NCBI GenBank assembly: GCA_947591605.1
Contig: CANQDF010000004.1
Span: 1-64,000 of the forward strand
Direction of reading: 5' to 3'
Source: an uncultured Clostridia bacterium
GTDB taxonomy: Bacteria; Bacillota; Clostridia; Lachnospirales; CAG-274
DNA length: 64,000 bases
Positions 23,277 to 56,801 of the stretch are shown here, piece by piece (position 1 is the first letter of the stretch; each line of letters opens with the position of its first letter). The translations under genes were made by a program, and so were the position numbers. The notes beneath the pieces were generated by a model. The model was not told the DNA's origin, ran no database searches, and worked only from the letters and a program-made list of their open reading frames with translations.

Positions 23277-23294
23277 AGCTGCCTTGCGACAGCT
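23277..23294. repeat. Direct repeat (outer copy) flanking repeat A: hairpin palindrome
   Basis: AGCTGCCTTGCGACAGCT: a 7-bp inverted repeat around TTGC, with one mismatch in the right arm. It duplicates the hairpin at 23535-23552 with a single base change. Confidence 0.8.
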
Positions 23295-23534
23295 CAGACT
23301 GTCAAAAAGCCTAAAATCAGATTCAAAAAATGATTTTTTAAGAGTTTAAACTTACAAAAGCACTTCAAGGTAATTTAAGCGCCGCAGGCTAAAATCCGCA
23401 GGACGAGCTTTGCCCGTCCGAGGAAAAGAGGGAGTGTCGAGCGATAGCGAGGCGCGAATCTCTTTGTACTCTGTGAAAAAAATGCAGGAAATGTGTGCAT
23501 TTCCTGCAAGCGTGTCGACTTTTTCGACACGCAG
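23295..23534 (-). mobile_element. Small non-autonomous repeat element, copy A (240 bp)
   Basis: This is the same element as at 36.2 and 56.5 kb, in opposite orientation. It has imperfect terminal inverted repeats; the right-hand terminus reads CTGCGTGTCGAAAAAG on the minus strand and the left-hand terminus CAGACTGTCAAAAAG on the plus strand. Inside, in element order, are a GTGTCGA/TCGACAC hairpin, a GCAGGAAATG/CATTTCCTGC hairpin followed by a T-run, and the hairpin GGACGGGCAAAGCTCGTCC. No open reading frame of its own is convincing. It sits between the ABC ATPase and MATE genes, flanked by 18-bp duplications that are themselves hairpins. Confidence 0.8.
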
Positions 23535-23552
23535 AGCTGCCTTGCGGCAGCT
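23535..23552 (-). terminator. Hairpin after the ABC ATPase gene; inner direct repeat of repeat A
   Basis: AGCTGCCTTGCGGCAGCT is a perfect 7-bp hairpin starting two bases after the stop codon of the ATPase gene. It was probably the operon's terminator hairpin before the repeat inserted; the T-run that should follow is now replaced by the element. Confidence 0.6.
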
Positions 23553-36136: not shown

Positions 36137-36162
36137 AAGGGGCGTTGCAAAACAACGCCCCT
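36137..36162. repeat. Left direct repeat of repeat B: terminator hairpin without T-run
   Basis: A 26-bp sequence made of AGGGGCGTTG, CAAAA and CAACGCCCCT with one extra A. It lies 12 bp after the stalk gene. It is an exact copy of 36402-36427 but is followed by the element and not by T residues. Confidence 0.85.
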
Positions 36163-36401
36163 CAGCGTGTCGAAAAAGTCGACACGCTTGCAGGAAATGC
36201 TTACATTTCCTGCATTTTTTTACAGAGTATAAAGAGATTCGCGCCTCGCTATCGCTCGACACTCCCTCTTTTCCTCGGACGGGCAAAGCTCGTCCTGCGG
36301 ATTTTAGCCTGCGGCGCTTAAATTACCTTAAAGTGTTTTTGCAAGTTTGAATTCTTTAAAAATCATTTTTTGGATCTGATTTTAGGTTTTTCGACAGTCT
36401 G
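36163..36401 (+). mobile_element. Small non-autonomous repeat element, copy B (239 bp)
   Basis: Starts CAGCGTGTCGAAAAAG and ends in the complement of CAGACTGTCGAAAAAC, giving imperfect terminal inverted repeats of about 16 bp. Internal hairpins are GCGTGTCGA/TCGACACGC, GCAGGAAATG/CATTTCCTGC (followed by a T-run) and GGACGGGCAAAGCTCGTCC at 36277-36295. Both ends contain TGTCGAAAAA. It is inserted into the terminator of the stalk gene, with the whole terminator hairpin duplicated on either side. Confidence 0.85.
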
Positions 36402-36433
36402 AAGGGGCGTTGCAAAACAACGCCCCTTTTTTA
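36402..36433 (+). terminator. Right direct repeat of repeat B: terminator hairpin with T-run
   Basis: An exact duplicate of the hairpin at 36137-36162 (10-bp stem AGGGGCGTTG/CAACGCCCCT), here followed by TTTTTT. It is the original 3' end of the stalk gene's terminator. Confidence 0.85.
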
Positions 36434-49870: not shown

Positions 49871-50644
49871 TTATGCAACAACTTTTTTTCTGTCGAAAAG
49901 TGATTCTGCAGTTTTTCGGGTTGTTTCGATAACCAAATCGGCACCGATTTGTTTGATTTCACCAATTTTGGCAATAACATATTCCAAATTTTGTGAATTA
50001 TTACATGTACCCCTTACAGGCTCCGGAGATAAATATGGAGAATCTGTTTCCAGCAAAATTTTATCAAGCGGTATATTTTTTACTACCTCCACCAATTTTT
50101 TTGCATTTTTAAAGGTAACTACACCGCCTACGCCTATATAAAACCCCATGTCTATATAAGCCTCTGCCATCTCAACGCCTCCCGAGTACGCATGTATTAC
50201 ACCGCTGCGCACCCCCGAGTCCTTTATTATGTCAAAGGTGTCCCGTGCTGCCTCTCTGGAATGTATTATAACGGGCAGAGCAACCTCCGATGCAAGCTCC
50301 AGCTGACGTCTGAACCAGTAAAGCTGCTCATCCTTATATTCGGCATCGTAATGATAATCCAGCCCTATTTCGCCTATGGCAAGCACCTTGCTGTGTGCGG
50401 AAAGCTGCCTCAATATATCGATATCGTTCTCCGTCATATGCTCGGTATCGTGAGGATGGATCCCCACAGCGGCATATATATAAGGATATTTCTCCGCAAG
50501 CGCAATACTTGCCCTTGACGACGGAATATCGGCGCCGACATTTATCACTCTGCCTATCCCCTTGTCGGGCAGGGAGGACAAAAGCTCCTCCCTGACACCG
50601 TCAAAACGCTCGTCATCGTAATGTGCGTGGGTTTCGTATATCAT
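49871..50644 (-). CDS. tatD: TatD family metal-dependent deoxyribonuclease
   Basis: A 257-residue TIM-barrel hydrolase with the metal motif THAHYDD (His6, His8), GEIGLDYHYD, IHSREA, HAYSGG and ETDSPYLSPEP. Family members are 3'-5' DNA exonucleases. Its ATG overlaps the metG stop as TGATG, the usual metG-tatD pairing, so it is under the same T-box. Confidence 0.93.
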   Translation of the reverse strand: MIYETHAHYDDERFDGVREELLSSLPDKGIGRVINVGADIPSSRASIALAEKYPYIYAAVGIHPHDTEHMTENDIDILRQLSAHSKVLAIGEIGLDYHYDAEYKDEQLYWFRRQLELASEVALPVIIHSREAARDTFDIIKDSGVRSGVIHAYSGGVEMAEAYIDMGFYIGVGGVVTFKNAKKLVEVVKNIPLDKILLETDSPYLSPEPVRGTCNNSQNLEYVIAKIGEIKQIGADLVIETTRKTAESLFDRKKVVA

Positions 50645-52605
50645 CAGCCCACCTCACTGCCGCTCTTTATATCGCCGTCTGTGGTTATGACCTTTAGGTT
50701 TCCCTCATCATCGGAGGCGGCAAGTATCATACCTTCGCTGACTATACCCCTCATCTTGCGTGGAGGCAGGTTTGTTACCACAACAACATTTTTGCCCACC
50801 ATATCCTCGGGGCTGTACCATTTTGCTATGCCTGAAAGTATGGTGCGCACCTCACTGCCTATCTGTATGCGTGACTGCAGCAGCTTATCCGCACCTTCGA
50901 CCTTTTTGCACTCGAGCACCTTGCCTGTTTTAAGCTCTATCTTTGCAAAATCGTCTATTGTAATAGGCTCCGTTTTAGGGGCTGCCGCAGCCTCCTCCGA
51001 CATAGCCTCCTTCATCTGCTGCTCTGCCACCTTGTCGGCATAAGCTTTTACATCCTTCATATCAAGGCGTGCAAAAAGCATTTCGGGCTTTTCGACAACC
51101 TTGGTGCCCGATTTATAAAGACCGAATTTTTCAAGCTCGTCATAGCTCCTGAGCTGTGTATTGAACTGCACAGCTATCTTTGCCGCTGTTTCCGGCATAA
51201 AAGGTTCAAGCAGGCTGGCGCCTATTATAATAGCCTCGGCAAGATTATACAGCACAGTCGAGAGCCTGTCGGCTTTTTCGGGATCCTTGGCAAGCACCCA
51301 TGGCTCCGTTTCGTCAACATATTTATTGCATCTTTTAAATAATGAAAGGATCTCGGTTATGGTATCTGCAACACGCAGCTTATCCATCCTCTCTTCCGCC
51401 TTGGCACGCAGCGATGTGCAAACTGCCTTAAGCTCCTCATCAACGGGTTCGTTTGCGCCCTTGTCGGCAACAATGCCGCCGAAATACTTGTTTGACATTG
51501 ATACGGTACGGTTTACAAGGTTGCCGAGTACATTGGCAAGATCCGAATTGTATCTGTCCGCTATAAGCTCCCACGAGATTATTCCGTCGCTTTCAAAAGG
51601 CATCTCGTGCAGCACAAAATAACGCACCGCATCTATGCCGAATACCTCCGCAAGATCATCGGCATAGATCACGTTGCCCCTTGACTTGCTCATCTTTACT
51701 ATATTTGCGCCGTCGCTCCTAAGCAGCCAGGGATGACCGAACACCTGCTTTGGCAGAGGCACATCTAGCGCCATAAGTATTATAGGCCAATATATTGTAT
51801 GGAAACGAATAATATCCTTACCTATTAAATGCAGGTCTGCGGGCCAGTTGTTTTTAAAACGCTCCGTATGATCGCCGTCACAGTCGTAGCCGATGCCTGT
51901 AATGTAGTTTGTAAGAGCGTCAAGCCATACATAAATTACGTGCTTATCGTCAAAGGTGACCGGTATGCCCCACTTGAATGAGGTACGGGACACACACAGA
52001 TCCTGAAGACCGGGCAGCAAAAAGTTGTTCATCATCTCGTTTTTGCGTGAAACGGGCTGTATAAACTCCGGATGAGTATTGATATATTCTATAAGTCTGT
52101 CGGCATACTTGCTCAGCTTAAGGAAGTATGCCTCCTCCTTTGCGGGATGCACCTCCCTGCCGCAGTCCGGACACTTGCCGTCCACAAGCTGGGATTCCGT
52201 CCAGAACGACTCGCAGGGCGTACAATACATACCCTCGTAGTGTCCCTTATATATATCGCCCTTGTCATAGAGCTTTTTGAATATCTTTTGCACCTGCTGC
52301 TCGTGATCCTTATCCGTGGTGCGTATAAATTTGTCATACGAGGTATTCATAAGATCCCATATACGTTTTATCTCGCCTGCCACGTTATCAACATACTGCT
52401 TTGGTGATATGCCCTCCGCTTTTGCTTTTTCCTCTATCTTTTGACCGTGCTCATCGGTGCCTGTCTGAAAAAATACGTCGTAGCCCTCCATACGCTTGAA
52501 GCGTGCTATGCTGTCTGCCAGCACTATCTCGTATGAATTGCCTATATGCGGCTTGCCCGATGTATAGGCGATAGCTGTTGTAATGTAATACTTGCCTTTG
52601 CTCAT
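50644..52605 (-). CDS. metG: Methionyl-tRNA synthetase
   Basis: A 653-residue class I synthetase charging tRNA(Met). It has KPHIGN (18-23), a zinc knuckle CTPCESF...CPDC, and KMSKSRGN near residue 297. A C-terminal EMAP/Trbp111-like tRNA-binding domain (about 545-653) makes it a dimer. AGGAGG precedes the start. It is controlled by a T-box leader with an AUG specifier, and overlaps tatD. Confidence 0.96.
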   Translation of the reverse strand: MSKGKYYITTAIAYTSGKPHIGNSYEIVLADSIARFKRMEGYDVFFQTGTDEHGQKIEEKAKAEGISPKQYVDNVAGEIKRIWDLMNTSYDKFIRTTDKDHEQQVQKIFKKLYDKGDIYKGHYEGMYCTPCESFWTESQLVDGKCPDCGREVHPAKEEAYFLKLSKYADRLIEYINTHPEFIQPVSRKNEMMNNFLLPGLQDLCVSRTSFKWGIPVTFDDKHVIYVWLDALTNYITGIGYDCDGDHTERFKNNWPADLHLIGKDIIRFHTIYWPIILMALDVPLPKQVFGHPWLLRSDGANIVKMSKSRGNVIYADDLAEVFGIDAVRYFVLHEMPFESDGIISWELIADRYNSDLANVLGNLVNRTVSMSNKYFGGIVADKGANEPVDEELKAVCTSLRAKAEERMDKLRVADTITEILSLFKRCNKYVDETEPWVLAKDPEKADRLSTVLYNLAEAIIIGASLLEPFMPETAAKIAVQFNTQLRSYDELEKFGLYKSGTKVVEKPEMLFARLDMKDVKAYADKVAEQQMKEAMSEEAAAAPKTEPITIDDFAKIELKTGKVLECKKVEGADKLLQSRIQIGSEVRTILSGIAKWYSPEDMVGKNVVVVTNLPPRKMRGIVSEGMILAASDDEGNLKVITTDGDIKSGSEVG

Positions 52606-52625: not shown

Positions 52626-52885
52626 AAAAGCTCCCGTCCGCATAAGGACGGGAGCGATGCTCCGTGATACCACCTTAATTTGCCCGCACCTCACGGTACG
52701 AACCTCCAAGGGTACATAAATACCCCGACGCTTTAACGGGCGCACCCGACCCGGCCTGTGCGCCGATGCGCAGTCGGTGAGTGACTCCAAGGCCATCTTC
52801 GGCGGATCAATCTGCGCCGCCTCCCAGCAACGGCGGCTCTCTGTTGCATATGCTTCCGCTTACTCTCCTTTTCACAGTCTTTAAA
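52626..52885 (-). promoter_or_regulatory. T-box leader (Met) controlling metG-tatD
   Basis: Reading leftwards, the leader starts near AAAGGAGAGTAAGCGG and has an AGAGAGC segment of stem I. The specifier is GAAG-AUG-GCC (AUG at 52796-52794), matching methionine. The T-box sequence is AAGGTGGTATCACGGAG (52675-52659), where UGGU can pair with an ACCA tRNA end. The terminator is GCTCCCGTCC / GGACGGGAGC (52655-52630) followed by TTTTTT. Uncharged tRNA(Met) should favour the antiterminator. Confidence 0.93.
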
Positions 52886-56520: not shown

Positions 56521-56542
56521 GTATTATTAAATATAATAATAT
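56521..56542. repeat. Left direct repeat of repeat C: AT-rich palindrome
   Basis: A 22-bp sequence consisting of TATTATTA, AATA, TAATAATA plus one flanking base on each side, an 8-bp inverted repeat. It is identical to 56780-56801. Confidence 0.8.
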
Positions 56543-56779
56543 CAGCGTGTCGAAAAAGTCGACACGCTTGCAGGAAATGCTTGCATTTCCTGCATTTTTT
56601 CACAGAGTATAAAGAGATTCGTGCCTCGCTATCGCTCGACACTCCCTCTTTTCCTCGGCGGAAGTGAATTCCGCCTGCGGATTTTAGCCTGCGGCGCTTA
56701 AGTTACCTTAAAGTGTTTGCAAGTCTAGGTTCTAAAAAATTCATTTTTTTGATTTATTTTTAGGTTTTTTGAAAGTCTG
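56543..56779 (+). mobile_element. Small non-autonomous repeat element, copy C (237 bp)
   Basis: It starts CAGCGTGTCGAAAAAG like copy B; the right end is more worn (complement of CAGACTTTCAAAAAACC). The GCAGGAAATG/CATTTCCTGC hairpin is conserved. At the place of the third hairpin of copies A and B this copy has GGCGGAAGTGAATTCCGCC (56657-56675): another sequence of the same length that still pairs. It separates the GGDEF-EAL gene from trmD. Confidence 0.85.
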
Positions 56780-56801
56780 GTATTATTAAATATAATAATA
56801 T
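56780..56801. repeat. Right direct repeat of repeat C
   Basis: An exact copy of the 22-bp palindrome at the left side of the element. The 120 bp that follow up to the trmD terminator are AT-rich with nothing recognisable. Confidence 0.8.

Follow-up and report, generated by a model that had tools for sequence, protein, structure and literature searches.

A conserved hairpin in a probable IS1182-type miniature element inserted at transcription terminators of an uncultured Clostridia bacterium

Introduction

IS1272 and TnSha1, elements of the IS1182 family found in staphylococci, target hairpins, often those of transcription terminators, without any sequence consensus (PMC4923244, PMC5678879). 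According to published reports, the hairpin is replaced or (partly) lost on insertion and no target duplication arises, and the papers on IS1272 describe insertion into hairpin stems as novel (PMC4923244, PMC5678879). Bacterial MITEs are short, non-coding, multicopy sequences with terminal inverted repeats, target duplication, and stable transcript folds (PMC10969869). In Streptococcus pneumoniae the interspersed structured repeats BOX, RUP, and SPRITE cluster and insert into one another, and some of them are terminator-like (PMC3049150, PMC10969869). REP/BIME sequences, the system of RAYT, are abundant intergenic palindromes (PMC2817692), and some insertion sequences target them (PMC1525189).

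Three copies (A, B, and C) of an interspersed repeat lie in the window, the whole 64,000-nucleotide stretch of DNA from an uncultured Clostridia bacterium that was analyzed. The first-pass annotation of this DNA drew attention to a hairpin inside the repeat, here called P4, that differs in sequence between copies while its arms still pair, and read this as covariation expected of either a structured RNA or a hairpin recognized as DNA. It missed that the repeat lodges in terminators and is probably a transposable element of IS1182 type. We consider it likely that the repeat is a MITE, a non-autonomous transposable element of this type that inserts at terminators, and that P4 belongs to its structured core, whose shape has been conserved. 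No description of the repeat was found in the open-licence literature.

The Element and Its Copies in the Window

The repeat is a non-coding mobile element of approximately 241 bp, and at most copies it begins with TCAGnnTGTCGAAAAA and ends with TTTTTTGACAGTCTGA, which form an inverted repeat. No open reading frame of 80 or more amino acids is present inside copy A (241 bp), and the element has the terminal inverted repeats, target duplication, and lack of an internal transposase gene by which MITEs are recognized. Its features in the window are as follows.

36137..36161 (+), copy A, left duplicated terminator hairpin, AAGGGGCGTTGCAAAACAACGCCCC (from sequence; duplication found by script)
36162..36402 (+), copy A, mobile element with ends TCAGCGTGTCGAAAAA ... 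TTTTTCGACAGTCTGA
36165..36187 (+), copy A, left-end hairpin, GCGTGTCGA-AAAAG-TCGACACGC (sequence and fold)
36189..36214 (+), copy A, P1 hairpin, TGCAGGAAATG-CTTA-CATTTCCTGCA, followed by a T run (terminator-like; sequence and fold)
36231..36271 (+), copy A, P3, outer stem AAAGAG/CTCTTT and an internal loop with CGCGCC ... CGACAC
36277..36295 (+), copy A, P4, the hairpin under study
36296..36317 (+), copy A, conserved linker and P5, TGCGGATTTTAGCCTGCGGCGC
36402..36426 (+), copy A, right duplicated terminator hairpin, T run kept
23294..23535 (-), copy B, element, with P4 at 23401-23419
23536..23552 (-), copy B, left duplicated hairpin, AGCTGCCGCAAGGCAGC; right copy at 23278-23294 with one mismatch
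56542..56780 (+), copy C, element, with P4 at 56657-56675 in its other allele
56521..56541 (+), copy C, left duplicated AT-rich hairpin, GTATTATTAAATATAATAATA; right copy at 56780-56800

The whole element folds much more stably than its dinucleotide shuffles, with z values of -4.6, -4.9, and -4.5 (plus strand of A and C, minus strand of A). In longer copies (L073, L088, L077, L069, L047) the slots of P1 and P4 contain additional nested hairpins; whole branches have thus been gained or lost between copies while the remaining fold is intact. The window also contains a T-box leader, recognized at the Rfam gathering score (52641-52884, minus strand), upstream of the minus-strand gene at 50644-52605.

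The P4 Hairpin and Its Alleles

Exact sequence matching places GGACGGGCAAAGCTCGTCC at 36277-36295 on the plus strand and a second time at 23401-23419 on the minus strand, where no chance matches are expected, and GGCGGAAGTGAATTCCGCC at 56657-56675 in copy C, in agreement with the first-pass annotation. Computed folds bear out that the arms pair in both versions, and the hairpin GAAATG....CATTTC nearby does keep its stem while its loop reads CTTA, CACA, or CTTG in the three copies. The statement that nearly all positions of P4 differ was too strong, however: 11 of the 19 do, and among the seven outer base pairs three have changed on both sides, one has gone from G-T to A-T, and three are unchanged.

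A simple pattern finds the slot 46 times in the genome, filled 36 times by GGACGGGCAAAGCTCGTCC, seven times by GGCGGAAGTGAATTCCGCC, and once each by GGTGGAAGTGAATTCCGCC, GGACGGGCAGAGCTCGTCC, and GGGCGGGCAAAGCTCGCCC. The elements between which two alleles were probably exchanged have identical flanks. The 19-mer of copy C recurs unchanged in another subfamily of the same genome, which has a different P3 (L084, L107, L108), and again in a genome from a different family within the class (G362); the difference between A/B and C therefore probably represents exchange of a whole hairpin between two old alleles rather than step-by-step compensation. Hence the contrast that had suggested covariation is not itself point-by-point covariation, but covariation is seen in P3 and P4 when many copies are compared. 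True compensated changes occur as well, in the pairs GGACGGGC/GCTCGTCC, GGGCGGGC/GCTCGCCC, GAACGGGC/GCCCGTTC, GGTCGGGC/GCTCGACC, and GGGTGGGC/GCTCACCC.

Insertion at Terminator Hairpins

In the window's genome and related genomes, 72 elements had both ends recognized, and 49 of these are flanked by a recognizable target duplication of 16-38 bp (median 22). Of these duplications, 44 fold below -5 kcal/mol, compared with 15% of shuffles, and their length tracks that of the hairpin (r=0.96). The hairpin is flush with the 3' side of the duplication in 43/48 cases, with two extra bases on the 5' side in 29/48, and its right-hand copy retains the T run. Because the duplications fold, match the hairpin in length, and end flush at the 3' side, the element is seen to land where the hairpin of an intrinsic terminator has its foot, duplicating the hairpin whole. 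The terminators that house the copies are intergenic.

Among elements on the same strand as the upstream gene, 32 of 39 start 5-88 nt downstream of its stop codon. A strict orientation with respect to that gene was considered and set aside: 39 elements share its direction and 11 oppose it, but the ratio is just 20:10 where both neighbors are co-directional. At two loci (L069, at the start of C20, and L261) the IS1182-type insertion sequence discussed below lies within a duplicated terminator hairpin that flanks an element, and duplicated hairpins therefore serve as new landing sites.

Relationship to IS1182

The ends of the element match those of an IS1182-family insertion sequence in the same genome (TTTTTTGACAGTCTGA and TTGTTTGACAGTCTGA). 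A transposase gene bordered by the same end matches NF033551, the NCBI model for IS1182, with an E value of 9.3e-69; the match falls short of the cut-off since the contig stops partway through the gene, leaving a fragment, which also matches Pfam DUF772 and DDE_Tnp_1. Assembly contigs break within this IS1182-type insertion sequence. Pairing of contig ends revealed seven sites (L062/L069, L063/L072, L065/L077, L052/L085, L064/L076, L066/L070, and L068/L039) at which the insertion sequence is bordered on either side by the same hairpin, in reverse complement. A related genome encodes a complete IS1182 transposase of 475 aa (E 1e-124), in the order hairpin, complete IS1182, hairpin, element, hairpin, such that one terminator hairpin occurs three times in a row. 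The element and IS1182 thus share both their ends and their target rule, the duplication of terminator hairpins; we infer that the IS1182 transposase moves the element.

In many core-bearing genomes IS1182 was not detected, although repeats of this kind are points at which draft assemblies break. A REP element moved by RAYT was also considered and was rejected, an intact Y1 transposase being absent from the genus: PF01797 had no match in genomes G000 and G001, and only a broken copy in G002.

The following course of events would be consistent with these arrangements. A transposase of the IS1182 family would act on the ends TCAGnnTGTCGAAAAA ... TTTTTTGACAGTCTGA, recognize a terminator hairpin by its shape, and cut at both of its feet, with repair yielding two hairpins. 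As the right-hand hairpin would keep its T run, the upstream gene would still be terminated, so that insertion would be mild, and the element would become part of the 3' untranslated region. Inside the element P1, P3, P4, and P5 are kept as shapes: their stems change through compensated substitutions, and entire hairpins are exchanged or lost, but the linkers CCTC and TGCGGATTWWAG stay fixed.

Spread of the Core

The conserved core reads CCTC-[P4]-TGCGGATTWWAGYCTGCGRCGC, the stretch after P4 being nearly fixed. Searched with a covariance model of the core, the window's 2.37-Mb genome yields 83 copies. Within the window's family, a P4-P5 model detects the core in 10 of 11 genera (33 of 48 genomes). 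Samples from higher ranks gave 67 of 295 genomes for the order (25 of 129 genera; families f1, f4, f90, and f99) and six of 391 for the class. When the right-hand core was written as a degenerate pattern that allows any P4, at least 93 stretches in public genomes matched, mostly from uncultured Clostridia and from Chakrabartyella piscis, a member of Lachnospirales according to NCBI, in which the core lies in a complete genome; the pattern with full window-type flanks had no matches in the public genomes scanned. At two loci (L140, L145), the core is bounded, as judged by eye, by other terminal repeats, GGGnTGTCGCATTAAG; mobile elements of more than one kind may thus carry it.

A known Rfam RNA was rejected as an identity for the element: at the gathering score Rfam gave no match over it in the window, and with E values up to 1 the sole match at seven loci bearing the element or a module was a tRNA outside the element.

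Diverged copies in a genome of another family (G207; L243, L249, L252, L255, L258) keep P1, P3, P4, and a larger P5, with compensated stems, and several of them begin directly after a stop codon. A separate cloverleaf-like module of approximately 60 nt, GCAC-[TTTTGC..GCAAAA]-GCC..GGC-TCCGCA-TTACTTTTT-TGCGG-TGC, occurs solo or in tandem at L123, L129, and L135 and nested at L132, L138, L137, L116, and L088, occupying different slots of the element in both orientations. Its third stem varies (CCGCA/TGCGG, CCGAA/TTCGG, CCGGA/TCCGG) over a fixed loop, and a simple-pattern search finds 11 copies.

Covariation and Conservation of Structure

Across 32 distinct sequences, standard pairs fill 96.3% of the cells of P4 and P5, against 79.6% in shuffled alignments and 37-50% after sliding by 1-3 columns. 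There are 60 double-change cells compared with 16.8 in shuffles, so the absence of covarying pairs among many copies, which the first-pass annotation had named as grounds for abandoning its reading, did not occur. The covariation score for P4 and P5 is 0.535 versus 0.208 when shuffled, and at the third pair of P4 A-U, C-G, G-C, and U-A are all found. A second, independent alignment, with 11 sequences drawn from two families, has changes on both sides at 12 of the 19 pairs in P3 and P4, compared with 6.2 in shuffled and 0-4 in slid alignments.

Kinship among copies was allowed for with a self-written, R-scape-like null based on a FastTree phylogeny and Fitch reconstruction, with two schemes for redistributing the substitutions. 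Both schemes leave one pair in P4 and one in P5 at E<=0.0025; a second P4 pair is borderline (0.055 and 0.185), and one non-structural column pair upstream of CCTC passes too. This supports covariation without settling the case, since few structural pairs pass and a non-structural one does as well.

Divergence is lower in paired than in unpaired columns in the window's subfamily (0.015 vs 0.054) and in a second large group (0.016 vs 0.133), but hardly different in the smallest, comprising six copies (0.075 vs 0.093). Across two families the linkers CCTC and TGCGGA(TT) show little or no variation, in contrast to the stems. In P3, the internal loop takes two alternative forms, GTTCC...GAAAC and GTGCC...GACAC, and most rows hold a C-A mismatch (columns 20/43 of alignment A4). 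P5 is ambiguous: Y-R covariation backs GYC-TGC-GRC, whereas consensus folds of two groups prefer GCGGA/TCTGC. A further pairing from the consensus fold of the window's subfamily, between GCGCC in P3 and GGCGC after P5, fails in other subfamilies and was rejected.

Selection on Transcript, on DNA, or on Neither

The sequence patterns make selection on structure likely; it could act on the transcript or on hairpin DNA, or be mimicked by template switching. That the two P4 hairpins are simply unrelated sequences within a repeat, similar by chance and without covariation, might be entertained from three copies in the window with differing loops, but the genome holds 46 to 83 copies, and two alignments show more covariation than any of their shuffles, which refutes this very improbable explanation. 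Template switching in DNA replication would need no selection on structure at all: by copying one arm from the other it would keep palindromes perfect, recombination would shuffle them among copies, and the linkers would reflect common descent. It is a documented source of multi-base compensatory changes (PMC8794818), and both the whole-hairpin exchange between A/B and C, with the same 19-mer in another subfamily and another family, and the gain and loss of entire nested hairpins between copies fit it. Yet the two linkers stay nearly fixed across two families despite the change in the stems, in the two larger groups the divergence of unpaired columns exceeds that of paired ones by factors of 3.6 to 8, and the copying of arms leaves unexplained why most rows keep the C-A mismatch of P3. 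We regard template switching as the sole cause as rather unlikely.

The original proposal had allowed for a conserved shape of RNA or of DNA; selection on structure stands as likely, whichever of the two it acts on. Among distinct P4 states, on the strand read, there are seven G-T and 14 A-C mismatches and hence no excess of G-T; within subfamilies the counts are 5/1, 2/3, and 1/2. The strand test does not favor RNA of the strand read. Extruded or single-stranded arms might instead be recognized by the transposase or a host protein. The same transposase family does target hairpins, and both the lack of strand asymmetry among mismatches and the equal folding of the two strands agree with such recognition; the insertion sequences, however, are matched by the ends of the element and not by its core, and the loci at which the core sits within other terminal repeats (GGGnTGTCGCATTAAG) indicate that it is not tied to one transposase. 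Selection on hairpin DNA appears unlikely to us. RNA is ranked first on account of conservation, which is stronger in the linkers and in the internal loop of P3 than in the stems, and selection on the structured core of the element would then act mainly on the transcript. It is conceivable, if doubtful, that P3-P4-P5 constitutes an undescribed class of structured RNA, old and common to several families of one order, which is carried on mobile elements with different ends and serves either the element or its host, for example by shaping the 3' ends of host transcripts or by guiding or regulating transposition.

Significance and Comparison With Known Systems

The element links transposases that recognize terminators by shape with repeats that are preserved inside by shape, two subjects usually studied apart, and duplication of the whole hairpin predicts staggered cuts at its two feet. 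Neither this hairpin-duplicating mode in the group nor a covarying core spanning families was found described in the open-licence literature. Across an order of gut and fermentative bacteria the core recurs, at up to 83 copies per genome; as it is widespread, lies mostly just after stop codons, and is absent from Rfam, many 3' untranslated regions may contain it as an unannotated component.

As in IS1272 and TnSha1, the associated insertion sequence encodes a DDE transposase of the IS1182 family and the targets are terminator hairpins, but here the hairpin is duplicated whole and the repeat has no transposase. Bacterial MITEs resemble the element in being short, non-coding, and numerous, with terminal inverted repeats, target duplication, and predicted stable folds; they differ in that its inside does not resemble a deleted insertion sequence but holds a core with covarying stems conserved across families, and in its hairpin-shaped duplications of 16-38 bp. 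REP/BIME sequences are likewise abundant intergenic palindromes, whereas the ends and duplications seen here are of the DDE-element type and no gene of the Y1 transposase family was found in the window's genome. BOX repeats are built of modules, and with RUP and SPRITE they share with the present element the character of interspersed structured repeats that insert into one another and are in some cases terminator-like. Going by their descriptions, the element is set apart from these in its sequence and host, its hairpin slots with alternative alleles, and its duplication of the terminator.
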